Positions 7,501 to 34,233 of a stretch of 41,388 nucleotides of DNA are shown one piece after another (the stretch's first letter is position 1; each line of letters begins with the position of its first letter). Below the pieces are notes generated by a model. That model made no database searches. It had not been told where the DNA came from and was given only the letters and a program-made list of their open reading frames with translations. Both the position numbers and the translations under genes were made by a program. Source of the stretch: Saccoglossus kowalevskii (taxonomy: Eukaryota; Hemichordata; Enteropneusta; Harrimaniidae). Where the stretch lies: NCBI RefSeq assembly GCF_000003605.2, contig NW_003158725.1, positions 415,914-457,301 of the forward strand, read 5' to 3'.

Positions 7501-8167
7501 GTACTGAAAGTACTAGAAAAAAGGACTGTTATGAAGCCACTTTAAACAAAACACTACGATTACACATAATTGAAAGCAAAAACTCACATTTTTTTACAGT
7601 CATGTTAATAAAAGGGTATTTTTCTGATCAAAACAAATTACCATAGAAATCATCTGATTTCAAATTTATAATGGCATTTTTTCATTGATCACTGATTAGC
7701 AGAGAAGTAGAGACAGAGCGTATCCTGAAATTTGTCGTCCGTAGTCCAAACAAACAAAAATTTAGGTCATTGGAATATTAAAATGTCCTGACTTCCTATC
7801 TTTATTTGACAGGAAATGACACTGACAGAGACCATGACTCTATGACACTTCAATTTATGATCATGTTTCGGGGATTTGCTAACTACCAATTATTTAAAAT
7901 AATAATCGCATAACTATAAACTGTCAGTGGTACAACATTTTCTCAAGACATACATGTACATCCATGTCCATGATAAAGAGAAATTATTTCCACATTTGTT
8001 TTCATAATACTCCTCTGAGACCGCCTCACCTTATCTCTTGCCATAAGCAATATTTAGAGAGTCAACTCAACAAACCCTGACCATGTGTATTGATATTATC
8101 ACTTTGAAAAACAAATGAATTAATAGTTTCTGATTTTCAAGTTTAGCATAATTGTTTAGATTCTTAC

Positions 8168-9123
8168 CTTGAAAGAAAGCCAGACAGTCCTTTTTTCTTG
8201 GGCTTTGCTCCTTGAGCTAATGCTAACTGTTCATCGTATTTGAATACCCCAGTAGCCGGGTCATAAGAGTTTCTAGTGTGAAGACTAACATCCACAAACC
8301 CTGCCGCCTCAGTGTCATTTAAAAACGTGTGACCTTTACTGTCACTTGTTTCCTCTGCAGATATACTGGATGAAGGTTCTGTACTTATACTTGAAACACT
8401 TGTAATAGATGCGTCACTTTGAAATGATTCTCGCGTACCAGATCGCTGTAAATGTTCAAGTTCAATCTCTGGTGAGGAATTCCTGGAACTTGCACAATTT
8501 TCTCCATCCTCACTTTTTGTTTCGGATTGGTCATACGAATTGCTGCTTTCTTCACTTACACTGCTTCCGCATGTGTTCTCGATAGACACCTGCTCAGCAT
8601 TGCAAGCGCTGAAGTCTGCCCAGTTTTCACACTCGTAATCTGGGATTTTATTTACAAAATGTTCATACCTCTCTGATTCCGGTTTGTCGTCGACATCTTG
8701 TGCATGTTCAACAGAAGGCTGTTCTGCATCTTGTCGCACAGTATTATTACAAATTACATTCCTATCGCAAACAGGCTCGTCAACAGCGTTATCGACAGTA
8801 TTATTCGATGGCATTTCTGGTAAATTTTGGTCGCTGTCACACGAATTGTCTTCACATCCACACGAGTCTTCATTGACAACTACACAATTGTTTTCATCGA
8901 GGCAAGCACTACACTGAGATTTGTCAGAATCGTTGCTGATTTTAACAGTCATTTTAGAATCTTCTTGCAAAGTTACTCGATTCAATCCATCGTCAACAAA
9001 ACAATCGTCGACGGTACCGGCGTTGCCATTTTCGTGGTTCACTGCATCCGTTTTGGGCATAGCCCAACGGTCTTCTTCCAACCTTTCGACCACAACATCA
9101 GACGTGGAATTGACTGAGTCCAT
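8168..9123 (-). CDS. First coding exon of a TBC1D12/TBC1D14-like gene (partial; continues beyond left edge)
   Basis: The exon encodes about 319 residues from an ATG at 9123 (MDSVNSTSDV) to a phase-2 donor after 8168. The product is acidic and Ser/Asn/Asp-rich, apparently disordered, with a cysteine cluster in its first third and a final part reading DVSLHTRNSYDPATGVFKYD, then KKKGLSGFLSR. From memory of the family, human TBC1D14 has a similar order in its N-terminus: a SVSS-rich acidic stretch, an FTNVTLS-like motif, then a basic segment with NFFARN. Family members carry a C-terminal Rab-GAP TBC domain and act in Rab11/autophagy membrane traffic. No TBC domain is visible here, because the rest of the gene would lie to the left. 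The assignment rests on short, low-complexity similarity. The open frame also extends upstream, but with TTG rather than ATG, so I start at 9123. That the exon is coding is much surer than its family. Confidence 0.6.
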
Positions 9124-9750
9124 TTCCCCTACCCCTCGATTGCCGTTGTGCACATTCTTACCTTTCAAATCGCGGGGGATGTGTTCCAGCCCCTCCTTCG
9201 TTGGCAGAGGTTTGGCATGGACTTTTTATCAGAAACATTTTCGCGATTTTTCACATCTTTGGATAGTTGTCTCATTCCTAATCCATTTGACATAAATCCT
9301 AATCTTCGATTTTGTAGAGTTGCCCTCAGACCGGCGTTAAAAACCTACTCAATTCCCTTTGTTTATAGCGTGTTTTCAGTGAATTTATATGTACAGGGGA
9401 AAATTGTACAAGCGGTCGCCATCTTTGACATACGAAAAGACAAGTCACGCAAATTACCGCGAGAACTAAAACGGTTTCTCAAGGTTGAAGTTCACGGAGA
9501 GTTCAAAGTTCAAGGGCCAGTCAGACTAACTAGTATGTGCAGAAAGTGTAGCTTGCTTTTGAAATTTATTGTTTTGCGGTGCTGTTAAAGTTAATTTGCA
9601 CAAACCAAAGAATTTGCCATGGAAAATAACCCTTCGAAAATAGTTATGATGAGCATAACCATTACTGGCCAATAATTTACAAACAAATTAAAATCATTGT
9701 GCTAGGGAGTCATTGAGAGCGCGCGAGTTTAATGGGTATATTCAGAAACT
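9124..9750. promoter_or_regulatory. Candidate promoter / 5' leader region between two head-to-head genes
   Basis: The left gene starts its coding at 9123 on the minus strand, and UIMC1 lies to the right on the plus strand. This stretch has visibly more CpG than its surroundings (for example 9412-9480). It contains a YY1-type site (9415-9425) and a CCAAT box at 9669-9673. It is a plausible shared or adjacent promoter, but the 5' exon(s) of UIMC1 were not identified, so bidirectionality is only inferred. Confidence 0.35.
9415..9425 (-). promoter_or_regulatory. YY1-type site near presumed start of the left-hand gene
   Basis: The minus strand reads AAGATGGCGAC, a near-consensus YY1 core. In many animal promoters this motif lies just downstream of the transcription start, in sense orientation. 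Here it reads in the direction of the minus-strand gene and lies about 290 bases upstream of its ATG, which fits a 5' leader. No transcript evidence is available. Confidence 0.4.
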
Positions 9751-12014
9751 TGTGCCTTGTCATCACCATAAGATCGTAGTGTTTTATTTTCAATATTTCC
9801 GAACGCTTTTGAGGTATTTTTTTTTTCATTTCATAACCATAGTTCAGTTACACTTATATGTGAAGTATTTTATAGTAAATGCAAGCAATATTGTATGTGG
9901 CGCAGTTTTCTGACAGCTGACAAGTGACGTATTGGTCACAACATGGAACTAGTCCAGTAGTCGTAATGGTAGATGTATATTTACTAGTAACTCTTGTATA
10001 CCACAATATAATTTGCCAGCTCAATTTACTGAACTGATCTATTTTGATTCAACTGTATAGCCCTGTTTTCATGACACGGGGGGCAACCCTGCAAACAGTC
10101 CTAAAAACTTATGGCTGAATGAGTTTATTTGTTTATGGTCTTGTGTCTCTATTTTTACAATCAGATTACTGGTGTTATTCGGAATATTGCTCCGATCAAC
10201 AAAATAAAGCCTCAGAGCCGCAAACCACAGCTAAACTTTAAGTTATATTATGAGATATATATTTCAAGGCTTAATGTTAACATTGAAACTTGCTTGTCCG
10301 AAATGTTGCCTCTATATTACATTTCTATTCAGTTGTCTAAATAACAATTTTACTATAAATCTACCCTACCCCTGTTTTTGTTTGTAGCCTTATAACCTCA
10401 ATAACGATATTTGCAAGATATTCAACGAGAAGTTTTTTTATGTATCTTTCAATTTCGCAATAGCCCGGGGGGGGGGGGGGCTACTTCCACATTAAGTGGG
10501 TTAGGGTGTGAAGCCCACCTCTCGTAAACCATACTCACTTCTAAACCATTTTTTTCTATTTATGTACCCACTTCTAAACACAAGTGTTTTCAGCGAAAAA
10601 AAAACCAGCTCACAACTTTCGCAACCAGTGAGCGCATCCGGGCGACGCATTTTATTCAGCCTTTCCAGTATCTGGCTTTGAATATAAGGACCTGTGAAAA
10701 AGTAAATAAATGCTACACACTTCTAAACCAAACCATTGATAAATAACTACCCACTTCTAAACAAAATAACGTGAAATGACACCCCAGTCATACCCATATT
10801 GCACTTCTATGCAAGTAGCCCCCCGGGCGCAATAGTGACATGCTATCATGCTATCTGCTGTCTTCAGTGCTGAGCTTGACTTTTTTGATCATAAATGTCC
10901 ATACATGTACATTTTGAAGCAAAAACGGGTCTTAAATTTCTTATGCTGACCCTCTAGAGGGTCTATGGCTGAATCCACTATATACCTTACATAATTCCTC
11001 TGAGTGACAGGATTTTCCAACTGACAATTTGAACCATCTTCTAAATGCTTGAAGTTTTTCCTATTAGATATTAGACTGTTTTTCTGTACCTGTGCATTTA
11101 TGCCCCTTTTTAATTTATATGACAAATCTAAGGACAGTGGACATACTGCAGCGTCTTATAGTGACGTACACAACACATGTAAAATACTAGTACATTATTT
11201 GCATGCAATTCAAACACGCACTGCGCAACGACCACTGCACAGACTTTGAACATTAAACATTCCATAATCCCAAAGTTAGTTACCAGTGAGATTATAAACC
11301 GCTAAACATGATCTTTAAAATGTTGTCCAGATAAAACTTAATTAATATGATTCCACTAACATGCATAAATGTGACCTTACTTTTAAAGACACCCTCACCT
11401 ATCACATGCTCAGTTGAACACCTAGAATAGCTAATTATCACACTTAGATCACCGTACTGTTGTTTAGATTACTGACTTCAATCAAACTCCTCTATCTCCT
11501 TGAGGTTAGAGATAATAATTTTGATATTCTGACAACATTCCTGTTGCTTCAAAGCATAAGGGAGTAATCTAAAATTCATGTTATTTAAACTGAAACTCAA
11601 TTAGTACAATCTGTAAGCCATCAGAGATTTTTTTTTTAATAAAATTCAGAAATTGAAATGCTATTTGTTCAAATGTTAGATGACACGACATTGTAGATGA
11701 CTAGATTAGAAAGTAGGAAGCCAAAACGTGACACTTTGAAATATACAAAGTAGCCAGCTGAACAAGTTACAGCTATTTAGTAGGAAGCCATTTAGTGGCA
11801 ACATATAGAGACAAGTCTGTATTTTGTAAGGGTACTAAGGTAAACTTTTGAGGCATCAAGGCAATTACCTTTGATATCTCTTTGAAGCTTTAGCTTTGCA
11901 TTCGGTTTAAGGAATCCTATTTAATGCATGTACATTGTATCAAGTCTGAACAAACGTTTCAAGCATTTCTTTCAGTTTATACCACTTCAAATCTGCTCTG
12001 TTTTTTTGTGTTAG
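9751..12014 (+). other. Upstream region / 5' intron of UIMC1
   Basis: The first coding exon of UIMC1 is preceded by a splice acceptor (polypyrimidine run, then TTAG at 12011-12014). A 5' untranslated exon must therefore lie upstream, probably somewhere in this stretch or near 9.4-9.7 kb. I could not place its donor. Apart from the hAT-like element at 10464-10827, no coding or RNA gene is evident. Confidence 0.45.
10464..10827. mobile_element. hAT-like MITE with perfect 8-bp target-site duplication
   Basis: The 364-bp element starts CCCGGG followed by a long G run and CTACTT. It ends AAGTAGCCCCCCGGG, the inverted counterpart. The octamer CGCAATAG flanks it directly on both sides (10456-10463 and 10828-10835). 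The interior carries several copies of CACTTCTAAAC-type sequence and has no open frame of interest. Eight-base target duplications are typical of hAT and some other DNA transposon superfamilies. It is non-autonomous by size. Confidence 0.75.
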
Positions 12015-12015
12015 C

Positions 12016-12102
12016 ATGCCACGAGACAGAAAATCTAAAAAACCTGTTATCATCGTTGATGATGATGATGATGTCATCGAGGAGGATGGAGACAATGATT
12101 TT
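12016..12102 (+). CDS. UIMC1: UIMC1 exon 1: start codon and SUMO-interacting motif
   Basis: The exon has 29 codons, MPRDRKSKKP then VIIV followed by five Asp and further acids. A hydrophobic patch followed by an acidic run is the SIM pattern, and human RAP80 has FIVI followed by SDSD at the corresponding place. An acceptor lies one base before the ATG (AG at 12013-12014) and the donor is GTAAGT. The GAT repeat encodes the Asp run. Confidence 0.9.
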
Positions 12103-15100
12103 GTAAGTATGGCCATTTTCAGTACAAAATAATATTGCATAATGTGCACTGAAACATCACCTTTATGTGTCTAAATAAGATGTATCAGTTTATTTGCAGG
12201 GTGTAAAATATGTGTTATGTTCAAATTTTATATATTCATTATCAGGGGTTTTTCTAGAAAAAAACTGCAAGAGAGAGCACTGCAATTCAGCGGTGCCACC
12301 AAGTGGGGGAGATAAGGTTCTCCCTACCAGGGTGTGGAGTTTTTGATAAGTTAAAATGGAGCATTCTATGGCTTCCTTGGGGCCAAAATTACTATCAGAC
12401 AGGTCACAGTTGAAGACTATGGTCACATGTGATCCCTGGTCAATCTGAATTTTATTGTTGCCAGAGGATCTGCTCCCCAGGGTAAGGGGGCGCATGGCCA
12501 TGGCATGAGGGCACTACGCCACTGTGTCCTTGTTTAAAAAAATCCCTGCAATATACATTATGTCATAGATGTACAGATATATTGGTTTGATGATCTAATT
12601 CAAAATGGCTGAATGGTGGCCATTTTGGTGCTGAAAAATTATGGCATTCCTGAACCTGATCTCGGCATCTGACATTATAGGTTCCTGATGCACATCATTT
12701 TGTTTGTCAGATCTGATTTATAATATCTGACTGGTGGCCATTTTGTTTTAATGAATGTGGTTCGAGAGCCATATCTCTGACATACTTTGACTGATTATGT
12801 TTATTTATTTATTTGTTGCTACCCTTTAACATCAGGGGCTCACTAAGTTATTAGGAGCTACAACAAAATTATTAGAAAAGGCACATACTAGTACTATATA
12901 AATGAAAAAAAAAAACAGACAATTTAAAACTTAAAGGAAGTACAAAAAATGAAACTTTTAAACTTAAAGTGAATACAGGAAATAAATCTAATCTACATAA
13001 TCTTTTCTATAATCCATGGCATCAATAAGGAATCTTTTCACAACGAATATTTGTCATGATAATACCCCCATGTGTTTTGTAGCTTTCACACAGAACAAAG
13101 TGTTCTAGAGTTTCATCACCTTTCTTGCAGCATGGACATGTAACAGTACAATAATGGACATGTTCAAATTTTAAATATTTATTATACATCATGTCATAGG
13201 TAAACAGATATTGCTTTTGACAATCCAATTCAAAATGGCCGACCAGTGGCCATTTTGTTTTAATTAATGCTGTTCCAATATCTCTCAATATGGACAAGTA
13301 ATCATTTGATGATCAGATACAAGATAACTGAATCTCAATCATTTTAATGTTAAAAAATCATCATAATCATTCATAAACAAAGCTATATATATATCTTAAA
13401 TGTTGACTGTGCCATGCATGGCTTGTTAAATTTGGGACCAAATAGTCACTGCAAGCTTATCAACTTTTTTTGACCGATTATATTTTGAGAAGACAAGTTG
13501 ACTGGGTATTGAAGTAGTTAATATTTATTGTTGATTCCATGATCATGTATTTGACCAATCATGGTAACAGTTACTGATAGTGGTTATTGACAAAGTACCG
13601 TAAAATCTGTATTAGAAGCCGCATCGCTAATAGAAGTCACACCCATTCTTTTTGAATAATTGAGAACCAAAAATTCATCATTTCTCATATGTGTAGATGC
13701 TCTAATAGAAGCCGCATGCCCTCTGTTGCATTGTACTATTTTAATAGAAGCCGCGGTTTCTAATACAGATTTTACAGTACCTATACATAATGCGTTTTGC
13801 ATCTTTACTATAACTAGACTTCTAATGTTAGAAGTGACCGATCAATAAGGAGAAGGAATTTAGAATCTCGAAAACAAGAAGAAGAAAACATTGCACAGCA
13901 AGAAGAAGATGAGCTGGAGGTAGTTTTACTGATTGTATTGTTAGCATAAAGTTTGGCATTTCAAACTTATATTTGTGCGTGGCAATTTTGTGTAGGGACA
14001 ATATAAAAAAATTGTTTTTTTTCTTCCCAAGATTCACCTGGTAACAGTACTTTTTAATTTTTGTGCATCCAGCATCATTTTGATAATTGCTGATTATTTT
14101 GTGCAGCAGTTTGGTGTATAATAATTAGTTTATTTGCATATTGAGGTAGTCTACATATCTAATTACTTTGAGGTTCAGTCAATGTATAATAATTAGGTCA
14201 TTTGCATATTGAGGTAATCTACAATGTACATATCTAATTACTTTGAGGTTAAATCAGTGTATAATAATTAGGTCATTTGCATATTGAGGTAATCCACAAT
14301 GTACATATCTAATGACTTTGAGGTTCAGTCAGTATATAATAATTATGTCATTTGCATATTGAGGTAATCTACAATGTACATATCTAATTACTTTGAGGTT
14401 CAGTCAGTATATAATAATTAGGTCATTTGCATATTGAGGTAATCCACAATGTACATATCTAATTACTTTGAGGTTCAGTCAATGTATAATAATTAGTTCA
14501 TTTGCATATTGAGGCAATCTACAATGTACATATCTAATTACTTTGAGGTTCAGTCAGTATATAATAATTAGGTCATTTGCATATTGAGGTAATCTACAAT
14601 GTACATATCTAATTACTTTGAGGTTCAGTCAATGTATAATAATTCGGTAATTTGCATATTGAGGTAATCCACAATGTACATATCTAATTACTTTGAGGTT
14701 CAGTCAGTATATAATAATAAGGTCATTTGCATATTGAGGTAATCTACAATGTACATATCTAATTACTTTGAGGTTCAGTCAGTGTATAATAATTCGGTAA
14801 TTTGCATAGTGAGGTAATCTACAATGTACATATCTAATTTGAGGTTCAGTCAGTGTATAATAATTAGGTCATTTGCATATTGAGGTAATCTACAATGTAC
14901 ATATCTAATTTGAGGTTCAGTCAGTATATAATAATTAGGTCATTTGCATATTGAGGTAATCTACAATGTACATATCTAATTACTTTGAGGTTCAGTCAAT
15001 GTATAATAATTCGGTAATTTGCATAGTGAGGTAATCTACAATGTACATATCTAATTTGAGGTTCAGTCAATGTATAATAATTAGTTCATTTGCATATTGA

Positions 15101-18100
15101 GGCAATCTACAATGTACATATCTAATTACTTTGAGGTTCAGTCAGTATATAATAATTAGGTCATTTGCATATTGAGGTAATCTACAATGTACATATCTAA
15201 TTACTTTGAGGTTCAGTCAATGTATAATAATTCGGTAATTTGCATATTGAGGTAATCCACAATGTACATATCTAATTACTTTGAGGTTCAGTCAGTATAT
15301 AATAATAAGGTCATTTGCATATTGAGGTAATCTACAATGTACATATCTAATTACTTTGAGGTTCAGTCAGTGTATAATAATTTGGTAATTTGCATAGTGA
15401 GGTAATCTACAATGTACATATCTAATTTGAGGTTCAGTCAGTGTATAATAATTAGGTCATTTGCATATTGGTAATCCACAATGTACATATCTAATTACTT
15501 TGAGGTTCAGTCAATGTATAATAATTAGTTCATTTGCATATTGAGGCAATCTACAATGTACATATCTCATTACTTTGAGGTTCAGTCAGTATATAATAAT
15601 TGGGTCATTTGCATATTGAGGTAATCTACAATGTACATATCTAATTACTTTGAGGTTCAGTCAGTATATAATAATGCACAAATATAATTCATTTAATCTA
15701 CATATCAGATTCTTTTCTGGTGCAATGCTGTGTATAATTATCAGTTACTTTGCATATTGCTTCTCAGTTTTGCTTGCATCATAAACAGACTACAGTCTTT
15801 CATAGAACTTCTGAGCACTTCTGTGGATTATTCTAATGGATTGAGGATTTTTTTTTTTAGAAAGCACTGGCACTCAGTCGTCAAGAAATGCAGAAGCAAG
15901 CCAAAATAAGTGAATTATTTCAAGAGCAAGAAGATTATGTGAAAAAGAAACAAACTCCAACCAAAGACAATACAGCTTCTAACAAGGTATATTGATGAAA
16001 ACAAGTAAAAGTGCACTTTGTTAGATGCCTTGTCATACTTTAAATTGACATGTATTGAACAGGGTTACATGTGAAGAATCTTATAGAGGGGTTTAATCAT
16101 AACTTTGCATCAAAATATAAAAATTGGGCAAAAATTTGTGTTTGCCATAATCAATCTACAAAGAAGTTACCAATTGAAAAACGAAAATCAACACAGCTAG
16201 CCTAGATTGAGTATGACTATTGCACAAGTACGTTATCATGTAGCTATTTAAAATGTTTTCAATGAATTCATCAAAGTTTGAAAAAATGCAGAGAATTGCC
16301 TTCCTGATTGAATATCGATAAAAAGTTTGTAAAGACACTTCTTGAAAAAATGTCTTCTATATTTCTAAATCATCATCACAACATTTTACAGGAAATTGTA
16401 TCAAAAACAATGTACCATCTGACCCAATGCTTCATGAAATTTATGTAGAGTTGGATTATCATTCAAACACGCTGATATGCTGATAAAACTATGATGATTT
16501 GGAAAGCATCAAGCAAACTAACTTGGAATAACTGAGTCTCATAAGTTTATTTTATCATGCAGGTAACCTCCAGCACAGATGCTACTGAAAGCAAGTCTTC
16601 AAGTTCCCATTTTGTATCAGATGATAACTGTGGGAGGAAAATTACCAGTCATATTAGTGAAATTACACAGGAGTCAGAGAATAATATGAAGGTTGGTTTT
16701 CAGATGTAATAGTTGTGAACACTAAATGAGATCTATATACCATTTATATCTCAGTGTTTTACACATTCTATTCAGTGAGTCTTAGTAAATAGGCCACTTT
16801 CATGAGCCCTAATGCCTACACATCCTGGTACTTGTGTTGGTATGACTGCATTAAAAACATAAATGAATTCATTTTTGATTTTCTTACCAACAAAAGTACC
16901 AGGATGTCTGACTTTTTAGAGGTCACGAATTTGATCTATTGCAAATGCCATAATAGGCCTGATGCATTACCTTCAAAAGGTCACACATCCTGGTACTTTC
17001 TAGGGGTACAAATAAAGCATCAATGAGAATTTCCCTCCAAAATGCAAGCAATGTACTGTTTTGGAGTTCAAAAACATGAAAAAACATTTATGTATAAAAT
17101 TGGACATTATTGCTGTTGTAGGGCAATAGAATCTTTTGATCACAACCTATGAACTGTGTTAAATTATGTGCAAGTTGTTGTATCTTTGACTTTGCTATGG
17201 TTTCTTATACTTTTATTCATTGAGTTAGGGTTACATAATCACGGGCATGACCATGACCTTATTAGCAAATCACATTACGCCACGTATGTTGTCCTGAGCT
17301 GATCACGTGTTACGCAATAAAGAGTGGCACTTCACCGCTAACCTACAACCCGTTAACTTGTGTGTACATCTCCCTCTTTATTCTGATATGTGAATTTTCA
17401 CTTTAATAATTAAGTTTACTTTGTAGCAACGAGCTACAAAACAAGTATGTTCTATTAAATTTCAGAAAATAAAATTAAAAACATTGACAGTGAAAGGTTG
17501 AATATAGTGGTACAGCTTATTGTGTGTAACTAAATATTTGTGGTTAACAAACACAGCAACAGTCTGATAAAGTTAATATGTTGCAATTTAAGTTTTCTTT
17601 TGTTTATTCATGAATATTTTTAGGTTTTACATGCCGTCATTAACTGTTTTTATATATATCGTATCTTGGTAGTTAAGGTTACAGGGATGTGATATAAAAA
17701 AAAATCATAATATAAAGTAAAACCACAACAAAAAATACTGTGGAATACTTTATTTTTGCTGGAATTAATTTTCGTTGAAAAGGCTTTTTGGGCGTTTTGC
17801 TTGGAATTTATGAAAATGAAAATAGCGAATAAAGTATTCTACAGTAGTCATAAATATACACAAATAACAATAAAAAAATATATATACACTGTATAAAAAT
17901 AAAAAAAATCTGATTGACACTGCAATATTTTGTAATCATTATCAGAATTATAATTTGATTTACATTCCTTTTTCAGGAAATGGATTGTTCCACAACACAT
18001 GTTACTGCCTATGCTAATGACAACAATGCAGATAGGTAAGATGATCTATTTTTTTCAATACCTCTATACTACGGTAGTGGGGATTTATTCTGATTCTGAT

Positions 18101-21100
18101 GTAACAATCAAATTTGGTTGTAATCATTGTGTGATAGGGAATTCTCATAAATAAAAATGTAGTAATTCAGTCAAGGTTCAAGATGGAAACGTTGTAGTGA
18201 AAGTTAGGGAGGAATCACAAATTATTTTTATATTTTTAAATTATGCTCATTCACCAGTCAGCTTTGATTACCTGATCTAATGCATTAATAACTGATGCAG
18301 GTGGCAGTAGAGATATTTATGCTGGTTAAAAAAAAGTTAATATGTTTAATTATTCACTGGGTTTAATTTTTGCTGGTAGCTAAATGTGCCAGAAATCCGA
18401 TTATTATGCAAAGCTAACCATTGAATGTTATGTTTCACAAACCAGTGAATTTAAAACGTAGCGAGTATTCATTGAACATAATGTAAAATTAAATCCAGTG
18501 ACTATTGCTCCCTAAACAGTATTTTTACATTAACATTACATCTCTAGGAATCAGGATCATCCAAAACCAAGCAGATTTAAATTTCGAAAGAGGAAGATAG
18601 ATCCTCCACAGGAACCAATTCTTCATATTAGTAAGAAAGCTAAAGTGGAACCAGATATGCCAGAACAAGATAACATTTCTTCGGAGTATAAACCTATGGT
18701 TAGAAAAGTTAAATCAGATTTCCGAGTTAAACCTACAGTGAAGATGCGGCAATTAGTTGATAAAAGGTGAGAGGTGGATTGAGTGGGCGAAAATTTTGAA
18801 AATGTGTACTACAGAATGAAATGTCCTAAAAAGAAGCCAGTCACAGTGACTGTCAGTGTCATCCTCATGAATATCCTTAGGTTAGAGCGAAATTGACAAA
18901 TTATGTCATTTTTGTCAAACAATACATTCATTATTATAGGTTAATGCCATAAAGATGTATTAAATGAAAAATATTTGGGTCTAATATATCATAGAAAATG
19001 ATAAAAATTTGCATTTTCTGACTGTTTCTTCATGTATGAATTTTGCCCAATGATTTAGAATAAAATAATCATACGTTATTATTAAGATTCCTAATATTGT
19101 TAAAATTTTCAGCAAATTTATAATCAATTTAGCCAGTTTCCAATATGATAAGGTTTTCTATTTTATGCACTGAGAAGTTATTTCCCATAATGCATTGCAT
19201 ATATATGCAGTAACATGCTTAGGCCAAACAAAATTTAGATCTGTTTTTGTCAGTGTCAGTTTGAAAAGTCCTTCTCAAAAATTGATAAAAGAAGTGTTGT
19301 GTTTGCCGTCAGTGGCAAAACTTATTGTTTACGCATGCACACATAACTTCTTTATGTTTCATATAAAAAAAAAACGCATGACAAATTTGAATTTGGTTTT
19401 TATTGCCCTAAATCATAAATTCATATAAAGGTGAAAATTACATCTGCTAATGGAGACGAGAAGTGCGTTTCCATGATGCAAATGATCACTGAGATCTTGT
19501 GAGTAAAAAAATCACATGACTTGTTTTATCACCTCAGATACTGAAATAATGTTTCTCTGATACATGAAACCATGATATTTAAAAAAGCAGATGCAATGAA
19601 ACGCTGCTTGAGGGGGCAAAGATACGTCATGTGATTCTCTCGTTCCCAAGATCTTGGAGCCATTAGCATCTAAATTCTATTGTTACGTCCTATAGTTCAT
19701 TCTCAATGTCAGTCATACTAAAGTATCCAAAATCCTACATATAAATATTATTATATTTCCCGATTTATTGTCATGACAGATGTAAGAAACATATATCGGT
19801 ACTTGTACAATGACTTTGGTGTTTTTGTTTAATAGTTTGTATGTTTTTTCTCTCTTCTCATGAATATAGATTATTGAAATGCAAAAGGGTAAGTAAATAT
19901 ACGATATCACTGTTTTAGTCTGATGTGTTAGTTATGTTTGACTCTATATCAATATGAATACAACTAATTAAGTGAAAACACATTTAATCATTAATTAAAT
20001 TTGCATCTAGGGGCTAGAAGGTGGGGGAGGGGTGTCTCTGTGGGGTAGGGCATTTCAAAAATCTATTTGTCTCTCAAATAAGTGGAGAAAGTACAAGTTG
20101 TTAAGATGAAGTGGTGAGTTGATTCCATGACCTGTCCTATATAATGCAGTTCACCAGATTTTAAGCTTAGAGATTATCTTGTGGACATATGGATCAGATA
20201 CCAAAATGACACAAATTGTGTTATTTTACTTTTTCATTGTTTTACAAACGAGGATGACTACAATACAACATGTTTGGTACTAAACTATATTATTTTATTC
20301 TTATTTTTATTGTATTTGTATTTAGAATTGTCCTAATCTTGTAATACCTTTTATTTTAATACCATACTGAACCCGCTGATGGTTCAGTAATGTAATAAAG
20401 TTATTATTATTATTATAATATCATGATAAAACTCAATATAACTGGATATACATTATCAATAAACATATGGGAAACCCGTTTTGATAATGATGTTGTGACT
20501 GTGGTTCATAAATAAGCAGTATGTTATATATACACATATAGGTATCACATTCAAACTTTCCTCACTCTCATATATCAATTATTTTTTGTAGGCAAGAAGA
20601 CATTTTTCTTTCTCAAAACATTTATATGCACCGAATGATGTTGATCCAAACGTCTATACCAATGTTATCATTGCAATGTTTGAACAGTATCGATTAGCGG
20701 TGAAAGTAGAGCAGTCAAAATCCTTTTATTCGTGTAATACTTTTTTTGGCACCCCAATCAAACCTGGGTATCATATGAGTAACACGCTTGATGCAAGATT
20801 ACGAAATTCTAACCAGCCGATGTATGATGTCTATATTGTGAATGAAGGAGAAGATGATGACTTGGAAGTAATGGAAGAGAAAAAAACAGCAAAAAATCTT
20901 AGTCCCATTAACATGGAAGATGAAGAAGAAACAATCGACCCATTTCAGAGACCTTGTCAAGCTAGGGACCAAGAAACTAAGGTTCTTGAGTCTGACCAGA
21001 GTTCATCTGATGCAGACAACTTTCTGACCATTGGCAGAAAGCATCACCCCTCACGAAAAGCTTTGGATTTTAATTCAGCATCGCAGAATAAAGATGGCAG

Positions 21101-24100
21101 TCAAAGTAGCAATGATGAAACATTGTCAACTACAGTGAAACAAACAAGCCGTGTTATTGATTTGGCGAACGATGACACCCAGGAATTTGACAATCAGTTT
21201 GGCGAGGTAGAAGATTTGGATATAAATGTGAACAATGTCTCACAGGAGATTGCTGGAAAGAATGATTCTAATTCCATGTCAAACAAAGTCGTTCCTTCAA
21301 AGAATACTGTTGTGCGAAATGAGGATGCAGAAAATGATAGTGAAGAATATGAAAATGAGACAGGCCTTGCAATAAAAGTCAATGAAGTTGAGTTATCAGG
21401 TGATGATCTGTTTGGAAATGCTGGCTCTGATGATGAGAGTGCTGTCAGTGTGAAATCAGGTACTAAAATTGATACATCAAAGAAACGTGATGAGTGTACT
21501 AGCAGCAACATAGCAGCGCCAGTTTCCAGTGGTAGCCCACTTATCAAGAATGTTGCTGCTTCTGAGTCAAATACAAATCCGTTTGCAAGCTGGAAAACTG
21601 TTCATGATAAAACAAAACTTTCAGGATCTCAAGAAAATGGTCAAGATATCAAGTCGTCATCCCAAAACTCTATAATAAAATACTCAGAACTATGCAGTAC
21701 GGATAATATTAGCAAGAAATTATGTTACGAAGAAAAAAGACTAGTTCATTATTATCAGAAGAACCTTTTTTCAAAAGGAGCGATAGATGAAGCATTTTAT
21801 GTTTGTGATGAGGAGCCAGAGGATGCCGGAAATGAAGGGACAGATGAACAAATAGATGAAAAGCGGAAGGAATCAAACGAAGCAGAGGAGGTCAGTGTTA
21901 TTACCTGTTTATATATCTTGCAAAGTCACTTTTCGATGTCGGACATAATTGATTTGATGGGTTATTCCACAAAGCCTCACTTTGATATGAAGGGTGCCCT
22001 CAACATGCCAACATTGAATTTCAGTTTTGGTTAACATTTATCCATGTCTAACACTGATGGCTGATTTTAATTTTTTTTTAATATTTGTCGATTGTCTACA
22101 TTTTTTTCCCTCAATACCTAATATTCCCGATATGTAAACGCCTATATCAAGCTGACGCATTCAGTAACTATGACATGATGGCTCTAATCCCAGGATTTGT
22201 TACTGCTGCTTCCTTGCTGTTTCAGGAATTTAAGACAGTGCCCACCAGTTCGATGCTGAAGTATACTACTGACCAAAGTGATGTAGAAGAACCAACGACC
22301 AGTGCTGATGTGTCGCAACCAAGCCCTGAAAGGTACGTGATAGTTGATAAAATGATGATTAATACTATCTAGTTCATACAAATCACCTGTCTTTTCGTTG
22401 TGAGCATTTATTAGCTTTGTATCAATCATTTTTAACACAAAAATTGAAGTAATGCATCTTCTTGATGCCTCTCCCTTCAAAATACTTTCCTCTTGTTGTA
22501 TGGTTCTTTTTCACAACACTCTGAAATTGTTGCCTAGATTTCCCTCCAGTGGTCAGTTGTCAGATGATCGTAATGTCGATTGGCTGATAAATTGGAATAT
22601 GCTAATTTTCTGAACAATGGATGCTAGTTGTACATTTTCCCAATGTGTCGACTGATAGCTGCTACTGAGACTGAAGTACGATCGCCCCATTCCATCTTTG
22701 TGAGCTTGCAATAAATTTACATGGTTATTGACAAAAACAATTCTAGATGACTGTGGAGAGGACCCACAAACCAATGAAACACCAATAAGTTCACCAGGCT
22801 ATCTAATGTCTGCACTTCCAATATCGCCGGGCTCATTGAAACATTTGCACTTTCCATCAAATGATTGAATCATTATATAAGTGTGAATAAATGAATCGCT
22901 ATTTAAAATTTCTTGGATATTACAAAATGAGCACATCATTCCACTGTGACCTCACGGTTACATAGACTATGTTTCATTACTGATGGGATATTTTATTTTG
23001 CTCTATAGGAGTGATTCTACAACCATTCCAGTTTACGAAGTAGACAAAAATGTGAGAGACTCTGAGTCAGAACTTATTGAAGACCCTGAATCACCACAAC
23101 AGGTACTGTTTCGTCATCTGTATGACATGTTCTAGTGTACACAAATATATGGCTATAATAATCTATAGTCACTGCTTCAAGTGTACTTTTGTGCTTACAC
23201 AAAATATAGACCTAAGTCATCATCATACTGAATGAAACAGTGAAATAGCGATTGCGTATGAATTTTTGTCAACAGTAAGGCTGGCTCAAGTAGTGTATGT
23301 ACATTGGGTCAACACATGTAAATTTTGGTGTACGATCGACAGTCAGCTTTTTGGTTGAGATGCAATCCGAAAACAGGAACTTGTGCGTGTGCCCTTGTGT
23401 GCATGCATCTGTGCGTCCCCACCTGCATCTTAGAGATGCCTGGCCTGATATACATCATACCTCATACCTTATGTCTCATATGTGCATATTTATTCTTTTG
23501 GTTATCTGTTGCAAAATGGCCAAAATTGCAGTTGTTTTAATAATAGAAATTCATGAAAAATATTAAACTATGTAAATTGAACTTTATGGGACCTGAATGC
23601 ATGTATCCTTGTTTGTCAGATCCGATTCAAAATAACCAACTGGTGGCCATTTTGTTTTAGTGAATACACTTTTGTGGCCATAGCTCTGACACTCTGACTG
23701 TTCATATTCAAACTTTATATTTTTCATAAACTTGAGAAATCACAGAGACTACATATTGCAATTACTTGTATTATGTTATTGAATGCTAATAGTCAAGGTT
23801 TTGAGCATCGTCATGATTATATTGCTGGGAAGATTATTTTTCAATTATTCTGAAAATCAAAATTTTATGTTCCCGTGTATTTTACTGAACATATCCTACA
23901 TATACACATAACTGTATCAATCGTCAATCTCATCAACTGGCTGTACTTGGTTTATTTACAGGGCACTGAGTGTCCACTGTGTGGTGTGATGTTTCCACAA
24001 ACTGAAATAGAAGTACATGCCGCTGATTGTGATGGTACTGTACCAGTCAAGAGAACCAGGCCAGGTATGTATTACGTGCTTTAAAGGCGATTTAATTAAA

Positions 24101-27100
24101 TGACACTTGTCGCAAGACATGCTCAGTTATGGGCGAAGTCGAATCATAATCATCATAATCAAGCATCAGCTGCGGGATCTATATCTCTGAACATGTTTAT
24201 GTTAAAACTATATTACAATAAACAAAACTATTATAAATTTGTTTGTTCTAATTTGTTCAAGCTAAAGAAAGTGCCAAGTCATCTTTTCCTGAATTGATAG
24301 AAGCAAGAAAGGAGAAGTTTGGCAAACCTAAACGTCCACCAGTTGTCTGTGTGTCACCTGTTACAGAAGGTCTTGACTGGATAAATGAGTAAGTTTTCAT
24401 GTTTGAAGTTACACTGGTGTCACTGTATCCAATGTAAAACTGTGTATAGTGACTACTACCATTGTTATTTGTAAATTGTTCTTTATAGACAAGTGGTTTT
24501 TATATAAATATAACGATATAGGGTGTGTTTGAATATGCATGCGCGAGTTATGAATATAAACCAAGATGGCACACTGTTGTGCAGACCAGTGAGTACAAAC
24601 TGAAAGATTACCAATTTTTGACTCCCGTGTGCGAAGCACAAAAGGGAGTCTTTGCAGTTACCCTGTCTGTATGTATGTATGTCTGTATGTATGTATGTAT
24701 GTCACTTTTTTTGTTCCACCGTTATCTCAAGAACCACTGATCAAATTTTCGTGAAACTTGGTACATAGATGCTCTGGGATGATGCGCAGAGTTNNNNNNN
24801 NNNNNNNNNNNNNNNNNNNNNNNNNNNNNNNNNNNNNNNNNNNNNNNNNNNNNNNNNNNNNNNNNNNNNNNNNNNNNNNNNNNNNNNNNNNNNNNNNNNN
24901 NNNNNNNNNNNNNNNNNNNNNNNNNNNNNNNNNNNNNNNNNNNNNNNNNNNNNNNNNNNNNNNNNNNNNNNNNNNNNNNNNNNNNNNNNNNNNNNNNNNN
25001 NNNNNNNNNNNNNNNNNNNNNNNNNNNNNNNNNNNNNNNNNNNNNNNNNNNNNNNNNNNNNNNNNNNNNNNNNNNNNNNNNNNNNNNNNNNNNNNNNNNN
25101 NNNNNNNNNNNNNNNNNNNNNNNNNNNNNNNNNNNNNNNNNNNNNNNNNNNNNNNNNNNNNNNNNNNNNNNNNNNNNNNNNNNNNNNNNNNNNNNNNNNN
25201 NNNNNNNNNNNNNNNNNNNNNNNNNNNNNNNNNNNNNNNNNNNNNNNNNNNNNNNNNNNNNNNNNNNNNNNNNNNNNNNNNNNNNNNNNNNNNNNNNNNN
25301 NNNNNAGCTTTTGATATTTCAAGTAGTAATGATCATGTTTCAATGAAACTTGGTACATAGTTACTTGAGGACTGTGCAGAGACTAATTAGTTTTGGGTAA
25401 ATATTTGTGCATATTAATCACCTTATTAGCATAATTAGTTAATTTTCAGCTTTTCACCTGATATCTCAAGTACTAATCATCACATTTCATTGAGACTTGT
25501 TACATAGATATTCTAGGACTGCAGAGACCTGATTAATTTTGGGATAAATAATTGTGCCTATTAATTACCTAATTTGCATAATTAGTTAATTTTTTGCTGT
25601 TCTATGGCTGTTGCACTGATGTCTAAAAGCCACTCATTGGATTTCAATGAAACTTTTAAAGAGTACCCATCACATTTCAATGAATCTAGGACTATACCCC
25701 ATATTAGTTTTTGGTAAATATTTATGCTTCTTAATCACCTAATTAATATAATTAATTAATACTGATATCTCAAGTATTGATCATCACATTTGAATAAAAC
25801 TTGGTACATAAGTGCTCTAGGACAATAGACAGCCTGATTAATTTTGGGTTAAAATCTGTTCATATTAATTCTCTAATTAGCATAATAATTAATATTATTT
25901 TGGTTCTAATCACATTTCAATGAAACTTGTTACATTGTGCAGACCTTATTAGTTTTACACTTAAATCTGTTCATATTAGTTACCTAATTTGCATAATTAG
26001 TTTTCTGCGTTTCCATCATCTCAAGTTCAAGTAATTTTGAATGTGTCTCCAATACTCTCAGCACACGGGAGTTCTTTCTAAGCTTTCTTTGATTTAATAA
26101 TGTTAATAACATTAATAAAGGTAATTTTTTAAATGGCTGGAAGACATCCAAAGAGGCGCCGGGGGTAATTAGTGCAAGTGGTGCCCAGGTCAAAACTTGT
26201 CATCAGATAAGCGCATTGAATGTTGTACATGCACCGACCAGCTATTTACATGTTATTCATTAGTAAACCAAAGTGAGAACAGAAATGTACTGGTAATCGC
26301 ATGTATTAAATAATATTTGTTGAGGAATACACGTTCCTGTAAGTAGCACCCCCTGGTGATGCAGCGCTTCTGTCACGTCAAAATGACATAGGATATACAA
26401 ATTGTATTTACTTTATTAGTTGCCCTTCGTACTTGTACGTAAACTACAGAAACGTTTCTAGTACAGTCAAAATAAATCATGTATTAATGATTCAGTATAT
26501 AAATCATGCAATTATCAGTTTAGATGCTTCTACAGTATTTGCTCTATTAAAAGTGCATCTTTGATAGAAGCACTCGTTATCCTACAGTTGCGTTTGTTTT
26601 ATACTGATAGAGCAAATACAAACAAATGTTATTTTATTTGTACAAAATAAACCACTCACGACACTGAAAGGATTTTGTTTCACTTTAATGTTATCCATTG
26701 AAGGGCATAACTTGGAAAGGCAAGTTTCACATATGCTTATATGGGAAAGATTGAGAAGAGAATATGCATTGTGGGTAATCACAGCTTACTGGTACAGATA
26801 TTGGAGACTGCCTGTGGTTGCAAACCACTCACTTTTGTAGAAAAATTAGTTTGAAGGCAATAGTGTATTTGACCAAAGTAAAAAAATATGCTGTATATTT
26901 TCTGTGTTTACATAATTAAGTCTTAATAGTTTTATTTTTGCTTTCTATTGTAAACAGTGAAGGTCCTAGTACAAGCACGGCAAATGACTTCAGTAAACCT
27001 GTTCGCGGCCATAGGAAACCTGGTATAAAACGAAAATGGATCCAAGGTGAGTAAAGACATACCAGTACTATCAGTATATGAAACTTTGAACATGTTTCAA

Positions 27101-30684: not shown

Positions 30685-30715
<31 letters not shown>

Positions 30716-31033
30716 AATTATAATGATGATGATGATGATGATGATGGAAATGATGCTGATGTAGATGATGATAGTGGTACTGAAATTAATTGGAATGAAA
30801 TAAGCGATTCACCTATCAAAGCTTTCCGTGGCATTTCTAAACAACAAGACTCTTTGATTGATTATAAAAATCAGTTTAAGAAGAAAACCAGGACCTCAAA
30901 AGCCAGTAGCGATGGCTACAGTGCTGTCCCTAAAAAGAAGTTCAGCAGAGGGGGGAGTAGAGGTAGAGGGGGAAGGGGCAAAGGTCGAGGGAAGTGGAAG
31001 CGACGTGGCAGTAGAAAAGCGTGGAATAAATGA
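12016..31033 (+). CDS. UIMC1: RAP80 / BRCA1-A complex subunit UIMC1 (16 coding exons, about 1,099 aa)
   Basis: RAP80 recognises K63-linked ubiquitin (and SUMO) at DNA breaks and recruits Abraxas-BRCC36-BRCA1. Exons: 12016-12102, 13818-13919, 15861-15986, 16563-16691, 17977-18035, 18548-18766, 20597-21890, 22226-22332, 23009-23102, 23962-24064, 24262-24388, 26958-27046, 28212-28266, 29003-29191, 29435-29542, 30622-31033. They sum to 3,300 nt with matching phases. Domains in order: N-terminal MPR start and SIM (VIIV then DDDDD, residues 11-19); UIM at about 58-74; Abraxas-interacting region at about 244-285 (NDVDPNVYTNVIIAMFEQYR, against human DGVDPNQYTKVILCQLEVYQ); C2HC UBZ finger at 743-762; second finger-like motif at 937-956; C-terminal SDSPIKAF...DYKNQF, like human NESPVKSF...DFKKQ; RG-rich basic end. 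The protein is longer than human RAP80 (about 719 aa), mainly through acidic disordered segments. The start is chosen because MPR plus a basic stretch matches the human N-terminus. The exon 7 acceptor and the weak donors of exons 4 and 14 are the least certain points. Confidence 0.9.
12243..12550. mobile_element. Probable DNA-transposon MITE nested in an older repeat
   Basis: The segment begins CAGGGGTTTTTCTAG and ends with AAAAAAATCCCTG, short inverted ends of a hAT-like kind. Its left flank (GTTCAAATTTTATATATTCA) and right flank (ATACATTATGTCATAG) together match a continuous stretch at about 13160-13195 in the same intron. That stretch looks like an uninterrupted relative of the insertion site. 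Target duplication is decayed. No coding frame is convincing. Confidence 0.5.
12555..12795 (+). repeat. Dispersed repeat carrying GGTGGCCATTTTG
   Basis: Two tandem-like copies of a sequence with CAAAATGGC...GGTGGCCATTTTG followed by ATATCTCTGACATACTTTGACTGAT. Relatives occur at about 13158-13290 and 23590-23720 in the same gene. Family identity is unknown; no open frame. Confidence 0.6.
12796..13160 (-). mobile_element. 3' end fragment of a non-LTR retrotransposon
   Basis: On the minus strand the fragment reads TCPCCKKGDETLEHFVLCES, then a stop near 13022, an AT-rich 3' untranslated stretch and a terminal (AAATA)n tail at about 12798-12815. The C-x2-C...H-x4-C arrangement after a short linker is the usual C-terminal zinc motif of non-LTR reverse transcriptase proteins. 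It is 5'-truncated, as these insertions usually are. The clade is not resolved. Confidence 0.55.
13158..13292 (+). repeat. Copy of the GGCCATTTTG dispersed repeat
   Basis: CAATTCAAAATGGCC, then AGTGGCCATTTTGTTTTAA and ATATCTCTCAATA match the copies at 12555-12795 and 23590-23720. Its left part supplies the uninterrupted counterpart of the insertion site of the element at 12243-12550. On the minus strand the open frame of the neighbouring retrotransposon fragment reads partly into it, so the boundary between the two is uncertain. Confidence 0.5.
13596..13779. mobile_element. Foldback MITE with about 27-bp terminal inverted repeats
   Basis: The left end TACCGTAAAATCTGTATTAG is mirrored by the right end CTAATACAGATTTTACAGTA, with GCCGC continuing the match inward. 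TA at both ends would suit a Tc1/mariner-type TA target. The interior repeats AATAGAAGCCGC several times. The right end stops only 38 bases before UIMC1 exon 2. Confidence 0.75.
13818..13919 (+). CDS. UIMC1: UIMC1 exon 2: basic linker and acidic half of the UIM
   Basis: The exon has 34 codons, phase 0 at both ends, ending EEDELE just before donor GTAGTT. An acceptor after ACTAG at 13816-13817 is the one that keeps the frame open. The stronger-looking TTAG at 13830-13831 would shift phase. The acidic end is completed by KALALSRQE in exon 3. Confidence 0.8.
14110..15680 (+). repeat. 75-bp satellite array, about 21 units, with higher-order structure
   Basis: Each unit contains TCAGTGTATAATAATTAGGT, CATTTGCATATTGAGGTAAT and ACAATGTACATATCTAATTA. 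Successive ACAATGTACAT landmarks are 75 bases apart (14221, 14296). Some units lack four bases (TACT), giving 71-bp forms. Variants recur in the same order: the block starting at AATTAGTTCA (14491) is repeated from 15079, 588 bases or 8 units on, and partly again from 15533. The array sits in UIMC1 intron 2. It has no spacers and is not a CRISPR. Confidence 0.95.
15861..15986 (+). CDS. UIMC1: UIMC1 exon 3: rest of the UIM
   Basis: The exon has 42 codons starting KALALSRQEMQ, which completes a UIM with exon 2: acidic EEDE, Leu62, Ala65, Ser69, Glu72, matching acidic-phi-x-x-Ala-x3-Ser-x2-Glu. The acceptor has a ten-T tract. The remainder is charged (SELFQEQEDYVKKK). No second UIM follows, unlike vertebrate RAP80. 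Confidence 0.9.
16563..16691 (+). CDS. UIMC1: UIMC1 exon 4: Ser/Thr-rich segment
   Basis: The exon has 43 codons, phase 0 at both ends, acceptor TGCAG, and encodes SSTDATESKSSSS then charged residues. The donor is GTTGGT, weaker than average, so this end is less certain. No domain is recognised. Confidence 0.75.
16820..16907. repeat. 22-bp inverted repeat pair around ACATCCTGGTACTT
   Basis: The left arm 16820-16841 and right arm 16886-16907 are reverse complements with one mismatch, separated by 44 bases. A third half-copy (CACATCCTGGTACTTTCT) follows at about 16983, and CACATCCTGG also appears near 2306. It is probably a fragment of a foldback repeat. Confidence 0.6.
17736..17846. mobile_element. 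Foldback MITE, family A, short copy
   Basis: The ends TACTGTGGAATACTTTATTT and AATAAAGTATTCTACAGTA are inverted. It matches the family seen at 27636-27813, 29637-29840 and 32114-32338, with characteristic TTTTTGCTGGAATTAATTTT. It lies in UIMC1 intron 4. Confidence 0.75.
17977..18035 (+). CDS. UIMC1: UIMC1 exon 5
   Basis: A short exon, 59 nt, EMDCSTTHVTAYANDNNAD then a split Arg codon. Acceptor TTTTTCAG and donor GTAAGA are both strong. No motif recognised. Confidence 0.75.
18548..18766 (+). CDS. UIMC1: UIMC1 exon 6: basic segment with likely nuclear localisation signal
   Basis: The exon encodes 72 full codons, including RFKFRKRKIDPP and HISKKAKVEPD, basic clusters that could act as nuclear localisation signals. 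It ends in VDK and a split codon before a strong donor GTGAGA (phase 2). This phase does not fit the best-looking acceptor of exon 7; see that entry. Confidence 0.8.
19435..19676. repeat. Imperfect foldback element
   Basis: CTGCTAATGG...GATCTTG...AATCACATGAC on the left is mirrored by GTCATGTGATT...CAAGATCTTGG...CCATTAGCATC on the right. A related fragment, CAAGATCTTGACAGCCATGG, occurs near 34484 outside this gene, so the sequence is dispersed. It lies in UIMC1 intron 6. Confidence 0.55.
20280..20420 (+). mobile_element. 3' tail of a CR1-like non-LTR retrotransposon
   Basis: A T/A-rich stretch leads to ACCCGCTGATGGTTCAGTAA and AATAAAG, then a (TTA)n tail of about five units. This arrangement is typical of severely 5'-truncated non-LTR insertions. 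No coding part is retained. Confidence 0.45.
20597..21890 (+). CDS. UIMC1: UIMC1 exon 7: Abraxas-interacting region and long acidic segment
   Basis: The largest exon, about 431 codons. It begins HFSFSKHLYAPNDVDPNVYT and continues with NVIIAMFEQYRLAVK, clearly similar to the human Abraxas-interacting region (CPDGVDPNQYTKVILCQLEV). The rest is acidic and Ser-rich, with SIM-like VYIV-NEGEDDD (319-322) and VIDL-ANDD (427-430). Acceptor choice is a problem. TTTTTTGTAG at 20582-20591 is strongest, but joining it to exon 6 shifts the frame to an early stop. AG at 20595-20596 (exon from 20597) or 20598-20599 (from 20600) keeps the frame. The alternative is an unseen exon, or a different exon 6 donor. 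The donor is GTCAGT. Read-through would add about 47 codons before a stop at 22032-22034. Confidence 0.85.
22226..22332 (+). CDS. UIMC1: UIMC1 exon 8
   Basis: The exon encodes EFKTVPTSSMLKYTTDQSD and a Ser/Pro/Glu-rich stretch ending in a split Arg codon. Acceptor TTTCAG, donor GTACGT. Phase 0 in, phase 2 out. No domain is recognised. Confidence 0.8.
23009..23102 (+). CDS. UIMC1: UIMC1 exon 9: acidic linker before the zinc finger
   Basis: The exon encodes SDSTTIPVYEVDKNVRDSES and ELIEDPESPQQ. Acceptor CTCTATAG, donor GTACTG, ends in phase 0. It leads directly into the UBZ exon. Confidence 0.8.
23590..23720 (+). repeat. Third copy of the GGTGGCCATTTTG dispersed repeat
   Basis: CTTGTTTGTCAGATCCGATT, then AACTGGTGGCCATTTTGTTT and ATAGCTCTGACACTCTGACT align with 12690-12795. 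It lies in UIMC1 intron 9. Confidence 0.6.
23962..24064 (+). CDS. UIMC1: UIMC1 exon 10: UBZ-type C2HC zinc finger
   Basis: The exon encodes TECPLCGVMFPQTEIEVHAA followed by DCDG, with zinc ligands Cys743, Cys746, His758 and Cys762. Human RAP80 has CPLCDQCFPPTKIERHAMYC at this place, so the finger, its spacing and the FP turn are conserved. This motif is used in ubiquitin and damage-site binding. Acceptor TTTACAG and donor GTATGT are strong. Confidence 0.92.
24262..24388 (+). CDS. UIMC1: UIMC1 exon 11
   Basis: The exon encodes AKESAKSSFPELIEARKEKF then GKPKRPPVVCVSP and ends GLDWINE at a GTAAGT donor. The segment just after the UBZ is basic. No named domain is recognised. Confidence 0.8.
24667..24704 (+). 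repeat. (TATG)n microsatellite
   Basis: A run of CTGTATGTATGTATGTCTGT followed by more TATG units, immediately after the head of the modular repeat. The second copy of that element has (CTGT)n at the same place. Confidence 0.85.
24794..25305. other. Assembly gap (512 N)
   Basis: Unknown bases inside the modular repeat in UIMC1 intron 11. Flanking exons 11 and 12 join in phase, so no exon is required here, though a phase-neutral exon cannot be excluded. Confidence 1.
26958..27046 (+). CDS. UIMC1: UIMC1 exon 12: basic segment
   Basis: The exon encodes EGPSTSTANDFSKPVRGHRK then PGIKRKWIQ. Acceptor TAAACAG, donor GTGAGT. The basic end could contribute to DNA or nucleolar/nuclear retention, but no family motif supports that. 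Confidence 0.8.
27636..27813. mobile_element. Foldback MITE, family A
   Basis: CTGTAAAATACTTTGTTTTT at the left is mirrored by AAGAAGTATTTTACAGTA at the right. Internal CAGTGAAAATAAA occurs in both orientations relative to other copies. It lies in UIMC1 intron 12. Confidence 0.75.
28212..28266 (+). CDS. UIMC1: UIMC1 exon 13: acidic micro-exon
   Basis: A 55-nt exon encoding SDSEEESAISKIVKTHN and split codons at each end (phase 1 in, phase 2 out). Acceptor ATTTCAG, donor GTAAGT, both strong. Confidence 0.75.
29003..29191 (+). CDS. UIMC1: UIMC1 exon 14: basic helical segment
   Basis: The exon encodes DAIEDMLKDGIIQVAEKRMT, RRQRLRIFQEKPRNR and a Ser/Ala run ending QKQ plus a split Lys. The charge pattern suggests an amphipathic helix followed by a basic patch. 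The donor GTGGGT is weak but gives the phase needed by exon 15. Confidence 0.75.
29435..29542 (+). CDS. UIMC1: UIMC1 exon 15: degraded second zinc finger
   Basis: The exon encodes EERLEQCFICHKMIPHSKYA followed by QHVQEEVDRQ. Cys937, Cys940 and His952 match the second C2HC motif of human RAP80 (CYLCKSLVPFREYQCHVDSC), but the final Cys is Glu956. His941 and His946 are extra histidines and might substitute. Acceptor ATTTCAG, donor GTAAGT. Confidence 0.85.
29637..29840. mobile_element. Foldback MITE, family A, full-length copy
   Basis: The left end TACTGTGAAATAATTTATTT and the right end AATAAAGTATTTTGCTGTA are inverted. TGGAATTAATTTTTGCTGAA inside is mirrored by CAGCAAAAATTAATTTTAAG. It lies in UIMC1 intron 15. 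Confidence 0.8.
30622..31033 (+). CDS. UIMC1: UIMC1 exon 16: SIM-like motif, Asn/Asp tract, conserved C-terminus, RG tail
   Basis: The terminal exon, 136 codons and TGA at 31031-31033. It starts SQIEDVEILDDSDDD (SIM-like VEIL plus acids), then an Asn/Asp run coded by AAT/GAT repeats, then SDSPIKAFRGISKQQDSLID and YKNQF. These last match the human C-terminus (ESPVKSFVSIS...DCLVDFKKQ). The final 30 residues are Gly/Arg/Lys-rich (SRGGSRGRGGRGKGRGKWKR), while human ends TKAGRGRRRKF. The terminal conservation strongly supports orthology. Confidence 0.9.
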
Positions 31034-34033: not shown

Positions 34034-34233
34034 TTAGTCGAGGATCACACCACGCTGTGGTGATACATGATACATTGTACAATTGTCAAGATTAATCTTT
34101 GTGCAGTCTAATTCATCGGAACCATCAACGCAATCTTTAACCCCATTGCATAGACGACATTCTTCTACACACATGTCATCAGCACATTTCCATCCATTTA
34201 TTGCCTTATTTTCAAAACCCTCGGCACAGTATT
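34034..34233 (-). CDS. LDLa gene exon 3: second LDLa module and C-terminus
   Basis: The exon encodes YCAEGFENKAINGWKCADDM, then CVEECRLCNGVKDCVDGSDE and LDC, with eight Cys in total: six for a standard module plus Cys in VEEC and DNC. The additional pair may form an extra disulfide. Stop TAA at 34036-34034. Acceptor TTTCAG. Confidence 0.8.

Follow-up and report, generated by a model that had tools for sequence, protein, structure and literature searches.

A putative RAP80 orthologue of Saccoglossus kowalevskii with one recognisable ubiquitin-interacting motif, divided between two exons

The tandem ubiquitin-interacting motifs (UIMs) of RAP80 are the standard example of linkage selectivity achieved by spacing, and a RAP80-like gene of the hemichordate Saccoglossus kowalevskii raises the question of whether this tandem arrangement is shared by the whole family. 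The gene lies in the window analysed here, a stretch of 41,388 nucleotides (assembly GCF_000003605.2, contig NW_003158725.1, forward-strand positions 415,914 to 457,301; the coordinates below are those of the window), where it occupies 12016–31033 on the plus strand, from the ATG at 12016 to the stop codon that ends at 31033, with 17 exons encoding 1107 residues. Our reading, to which we would assign a probability of roughly 60%, is that it encodes an orthologue of RAP80 (UIMC1), a SUMO and ubiquitin reader with one canonical UIM, whose choice of ubiquitin linkage would come from the whole assembly in which it acts. An initial annotation had proposed a RAP80 orthologue with a single UIM split across two exons, and had asked whether the tandem arrangement arose later or a UIM exon was lost or missed.

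The gene model was built from genomic sequence alone; its 17 exons are consistent in phase, with GT donors and AG acceptors, and the 1107-residue frame is open throughout. The canonical UIM, EEDELEKALALSRQE, comprises residues 58–72 (E58-E-D-E-L62-E63, K64-A65-L-A-L-S69-R-Q-E72) and is interrupted by a phase-0 intron between Glu63 and Lys64. The part of the gene that surrounds it is arranged as follows.

12016..12102, plus strand: exon 1, residues 1–29, with an MPR start and the donor GTAAGT
13818..13919, plus strand: exon 2, residues 30–63, basic linker and acidic half of the UIM, phase 0-0, AG/GT borders
13902..13919, plus strand: acidic half of the UIM, EEDELE, residues 58–63, including Leu62, in exon 2
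13920..15860, plus strand: intron 2, in phase 0 and largely made up of a 75-bp minisatellite
15861..15986, plus strand: exon 3, residues 64–105, Ala/Ser half of the UIM followed by a helix-prone segment, phase 0-0, AG/GT borders
15861..15893, plus strand: UIM core KALALSRQEMQ, residues 64–74, including Ala65 and Ser69, in exon 3
15912..15962, plus strand: segment ELFQEQEDYVKKKQTPT, residues 81–97, placed near the human UIM2 position by alignment with the human chain
16563..16691, plus strand: exon 4, residues 106–148, phase 0-0

The MPR start is presumably the same as that of human RAP80. The two exon borders given by the initial annotation (13818–13919 and 15861–15986) proved exact, with the cut falling after Glu63 and the halves of the UIM in separate exons; the split could be of early or of recent origin. 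Exons 2, 3 and 4 (13818–16691) could each be skipped in frame, being phase 0-0, and skipping of exon 2 or exon 3 would delete half of the UIM. Immediately before the start codon, at 12001–12015, an acceptor-like sequence, TTTTTTTGTGTTAG, ends one base upstream of the ATG, which suggests an intron in the 5' untranslated region.

That only one good UIM is present was also borne out. A strict pattern (three acidic residues, any residue, Leu, any two residues, Ala, any three, Ser, any two and an acidic residue) was matched at one site in the 1107 residues and at none in the forward frames of all 16 introns and of 9600–12015. Outside this site, a medium pattern was matched only at positions 10644 and 27213, and a loose pattern at residues 303 and 436 and at six places in intron 1, none of whose frames is preceded by an acidic stretch. 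A UIM score matrix gave 28.3 at residues 59–73 and 5.0 at the runner-up place, although this matrix was derived from 16 UIMs, including those of human RAP80 and ataxin-3, and is hence not independent. The nearby EEENIAQQ lacks the Ala-x3-Ser core, in agreement with the initial annotation. The profile search that it had recommended supports the motif in part: the acidic stretch followed by Leu-x2-Ala-x3-Ser that characterizes the Pfam family UIM (PF02809) is present, and the isolated 20-mer scores 21.9 bits (cut-off 21), whereas residues 1–105 score 17.6 bits, with both UIM and UIM_2 under their cut-offs, and the scan of the whole protein does not list UIM and gives UIM_2 alone at 14.5 bits, again under the cut-off. 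Two UIMs on one helix at a fixed spacing, which define the family RAP80_UIM (PF18282), were not found, and the protein is therefore not placed in this tandem family; it gave no match to that profile at E ≤ 10 (human control, 116.1 bits). Genome-wide searches with PF02809 and PF18282 returned no match, an uninformative result given that PF02809 misses even the known split UIM.

The assignment to RAP80 draws on modules distributed along the entire protein, listed here with the exon that contains the Abraxas-interacting region (AIR).

12046..12072, plus strand: SUMO-interacting motif (SIM) VIIVDDDDD, residues 11–19, aligned with FIVISDSD of human RAP80
20592..21890, plus strand: exon 8, residues 248–680, containing the AIR
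20601..20765, plus strand: AIR, residues 251–305, matched by 6gvw_E (E = 0.0041) and by the 9sqy block 259–306
23971..24030, plus strand: zinc finger 1, residues 751–770, C-x2-C-x11-H-x3-C, with the complete ligand set C751, C754, H766 and C770
29463..29522, plus strand: zinc finger 2 remnant, residues 945–964, C-x2-C-x11-H-x3-E (C945, C948, H960, E964)
30791..30883, plus strand: conserved C-terminal motif, residues 1028–1058, SPIKAF..IS..DSLIDYK

In a search of PDB chains, the best match was the RAP80 chain 9sqy, with E = 1.3e-4 for the whole chain over five colinear blocks (residues 4–121, 259–306, 699–785, 940–963 and 1028–1058); the only other match with E < 0.01 was the RAP80 chain 6gvw_E over the AIR, and the third and last was a low-complexity match (E = 5.5). 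The chains 9sqy_I and 6gvw_E are those which we take to be human and mouse RAP80, respectively. When the C-terminal motif alone was used as the query, RAP80 was the sole match at E ≤ 10 (E = 0.05). Since the blocks are individually weak, with independent E-values of at least 0.84, the case for orthology rests on their order and their sum, and colinear similarity was indeed found over the N-terminus, the AIR, zinc finger 1, the zinc finger 2 region and the C-terminus. Together with the 17-exon frame, these matches uphold the RAP80 assignment of the initial annotation. In the assembly (572 Mb in 4830 contigs), all 15 protein matches at E ≤ 0.001 fall within this single locus, and no second copy or haplotig was found.

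Both RAP80 chains share with the present protein the order of SIM, linker and UIM region, AIR, two CxxC finger regions and C-terminal SP-K-F motif, but they have two UIMs instead of one, and the last Cys of zinc finger 2 is missing here. The length of 1107 residues compares with 719 given for RAP80 in one passage of PMC7692841. The SIM precedes the UIM region, as in RAP80, and the basic linker between them (residues 34–48) has a net charge of +5, compared with +7 in the human protein. Further SIM-like sites occur at residues 327 and 977; the total of three, compared with averages of 0.62 and 0.74 in two kinds of shuffle, was reached by 25/1000 and 42/1000 shuffled sequences, which is suggestive only of several SIMs in the protein. 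By its similarity, the AIR is predicted to serve docking to the BRCA1-A complex. Zinc finger 1, which gave no Pfam zinc finger above the cut-off, would correspond to the finger that we assume to be of UBZ4 type in human RAP80. In sequence, the SIM and the UBZ-like finger, to which the initial annotation had looked as possible other sources of selectivity, are both present. The last ligand position of zinc finger 2, presumably Cys in the human protein, is occupied by Glu964, and as a four-ligand second finger was not deemed to define the family, this was taken as divergence and the orthology was kept. The human counterpart of the C-terminal motif reads SPVKSF..IS..DCLVDFK; we know of no function for it.

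What, then, occupies the place of the second UIM? On a simple helix-propensity scale, a helix-prone stretch covers residues ~33–94, compared with ~59–120 in human RAP80; since the part that follows the UIM is approximately of human length, the position of UIM2 seems to be occupied but degenerate rather than deleted, and the physical loss of a UIM exon, as considered by the initial annotation, is not required. The segment ELFQEQEDYVKKKQTPT contains an acidic patch, EQED (residues 85–88), and no Ala-x3-Ser. In human RAP80 the two UIM cores are 25 residues apart; counted on both sequences, this distance leads from Ala65/Ser69 to Val90/Gln94, and the Ala/Ser core is thus absent at that place. The best explanation would be that UIM2 either never formed or decayed in this lineage. 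Alignments to human UIM1 and UIM2 were matched by 28/500 and 40/500 shuffles, respectively, and the alignment over both by 56/500; descent from UIM1 may be hinted at by the IAQ that precedes the motif and the QE that follows its Ser.

A second UIM might also have been overlooked, in an unassembled or collapsed exon, most likely in the minisatellite of intron 2, or in an exon with unusual splice sites, but we consider this very improbable. Intron 2 consists mostly of the 75-bp repeat (14152–15675, 20.6 copies, 92% matches), where the assembly could have collapsed, and an additional cassette would preserve the frame since each of exons 2–4 is phase 0-0; against this, introns 1–3 contain no N, and what follows the UIM is already close to its human counterpart in length. 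Furthermore, open phase-0 intervals of 18–300 nt bounded by AG and GT and keeping a margin of 60 nt or more to either intron end were collected from introns 1, 2 and 3 (34, 43 and 7 intervals, respectively) and scored jointly with the exons on both sides, a procedure that would have revealed an intron 2 cassette completing two half-motifs; in none of the 84 do two UIM-like sites exceed 8 bits, and the best interval of intron 2 leaves one UIM-like site with a score of only 16.0. The best frames of introns 1, 2 and 3 score 0.5, −1.9 and −3.8, lower than the 95% levels of 100 dinucleotide shuffles per intron (4.8, 3.0 and 4.7), and neither the strict nor the medium pattern is matched in these introns. 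A hidden UIM cassette exon in introns 1–3 is rejected on these grounds: the exon that the initial annotation thought might have been missed between 12102 and 16563 did not emerge, and neither the 34 intervals of intron 1 nor the 43 of intron 2, the introns in which it had advised looking for a phase-0 cassette, add a UIM.

If the second motif is truly absent, its absence can be read in two directions. The single UIM might be what remains of an ancestral tandem that decayed in this lineage, leaving a reader of mono-ubiquitin or SUMO with a relaxed choice of linkage; the residual acidic patch near the UIM2 position and the likewise missing last Cys of zinc finger 2 speak for this possibility, which we hold only tentatively, as the comparison is with the two vertebrate chains and a motif that never formed would look identical. 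It is also conceivable, if doubtful, that the UIM of ancestral RAP80 was single, with mixed SUMO–ubiquitin marks being read through avidity in a dimeric complex, and that the rigid tandem, the K63 ruler of vertebrates, was a later addition, perhaps around the Abraxas/ABRO1 split in early vertebrates. One review passage (PMC7692841) dates that split before the cyclostomes and places BRCA1-A in all vertebrates. No literature on the UIMs of invertebrate RAP80 was found in a search that was not exhaustive. Linkage selectivity might instead reside in the helix itself, in that the canonical UIM could be accompanied by a second, unrecognised ubiquitin contact conferring K63 selectivity, as the UAD does beside MIU2 in RNF168; part of PMC5766498 describes UDM2 (UAD-MIU2) of RNF168 as a helix with one known motif and a K63 preference through a flanking contact on the continuous helix, and the protein here likewise has a long helix-prone stretch with acidic residues on either side of the UIM core (49–61 and 85–88). 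The MIU of RNF168 has the opposite orientation to a UIM. A second contact nevertheless seems unlikely here: helix propensity is its sole support, and of the patterns devised for this analysis, those for inverted UIMs matched only at the distant residues 548, 648, 825 and 958, while a crude one for double-sided UIMs matched nowhere in the protein. An inverted or double-sided UIM was rejected on these matches, and inspection by eye agreed, since the Hrs pattern calls for a hydrophobic residue and Ser in the second register, at the places that Lys64 and Gln71 take here.

Several points weigh against the orthologue with one canonical UIM that we prefer. None of the 9sqy blocks reaches significance by itself, the N-terminal one amounting to just 1.5 bits. 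When the UIM region (residues 43–93) was searched against the PDB, no RAP80 chain appeared at E ≤ 10; the best match was UIM1 of ataxin-3 (2klz, E = 0.092), the core of which, (R/K)ALALSRQE, is almost identical, although ataxin-3 is a different protein whose chain has a second UIM-like stretch. The exon structure is predicted from genomic sequence, and action at DNA breaks and binding to K63-linked ubiquitin are both putative. For Abraxas, neither the human protein nor PF21125 gave a match, in an exon-wise search so insensitive that the empty answer is uninformative. Moreover, deletion of either UIM of human RAP80 perturbs foci according to a passage of PMC3767628, and one UIM might therefore not suffice.

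Should the preferred reading of a single-UIM reader hold, docking into a BRCC36-type deubiquitinase complex would fall to the AIR and SUMO binding to the SIM together with the basic linker, and the single UIM on its long helix would bind one ubiquitin weakly. Affinity would be gained by adding the SIM and the UIM on mixed SUMO–ubiquitin chains, as well as from two copies of RAP80 per complex, a number presumed from the dimeric core. The K63 preference would then be a property of the whole assembly, including chain geometry, BRCC36 and perhaps zinc finger 1, with no rigid tandem-UIM ruler, and any linkage preference could derive from SIM and UIM avidity, from the dimeric complex or from a second weak contact. 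The human system offers precedents: sections of PMC7692841 give ~200 nM for the SIM plus UIMs on mixed chains, compared with 17 µM for K63-diubiquitin, and state that mixed chains are bound far better by the combination than by either element alone, linker residues 59–75 of human RAP80 are proposed in part of PMC8585875 to aid SUMO binding, and an excerpt of PMC5199339 describes the core complex as a dimer of four-subunit units that is active on K63 linkages without RAP80. Among the partners, the core subunit BRE is hinted at in this genome by one match (E = 6.6e-4) to the final 39 of the 320 positions of its profile, with 27.1 bits against a cut-off of 25.8.

Elsewhere in the window, two LDL-receptor class A domains (34034–34258 and 35479–35769) lie on the minus strand, opposite to the RAP80 gene, and a reverse transcriptase fragment (PF00078) at 40136–40555 on the minus strand is likely to be a retroelement remnant. 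An acidic open frame of 353 residues at 8164–9225, also on the minus strand, is possibly the end of a gene; its best Pfam match has E = 0.12, under the cut-off. The sole gap in the window, 512 N at 24794–25305, falls in intron 12. The assembly also includes a mitochondrial contig of 17,037 bases, C4830, presumably of the same animal, with a COX1 match containing seven internal TGA codons and with frames that resemble ND1, ND2 and COX2. In the ND1- and ND2-like frames AGA occurs as a sense codon, once inside each as their starts were placed, AAA stands at conserved lysine positions of the ND1-like frame, and under the vertebrate code no frame of ND1 length was found on the forward strand. AGA is a stop codon in the vertebrate mitochondrial code and AAA encodes Asn in the echinoderm code; on thin evidence, the code of this contig would be neither. 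Within C4830:8000–16000, COX1 does not share a strand with the ND1-, ND2- and COX2-like frames, which lie on the other one.

A survey (PMC3969565) has UIMC1 appearing 'much later before vertebrates'; the present locus, if the reading is true, would place the RAP80 gene outside vertebrates. The two-UIM grip of vertebrate RAP80 may then not be a universal part of RAP80. A single-UIM orthologue would mean that recruitment to SUMO–ubiquitin marks is separable from K63 selectivity, and would provide a natural test of the origin of each.

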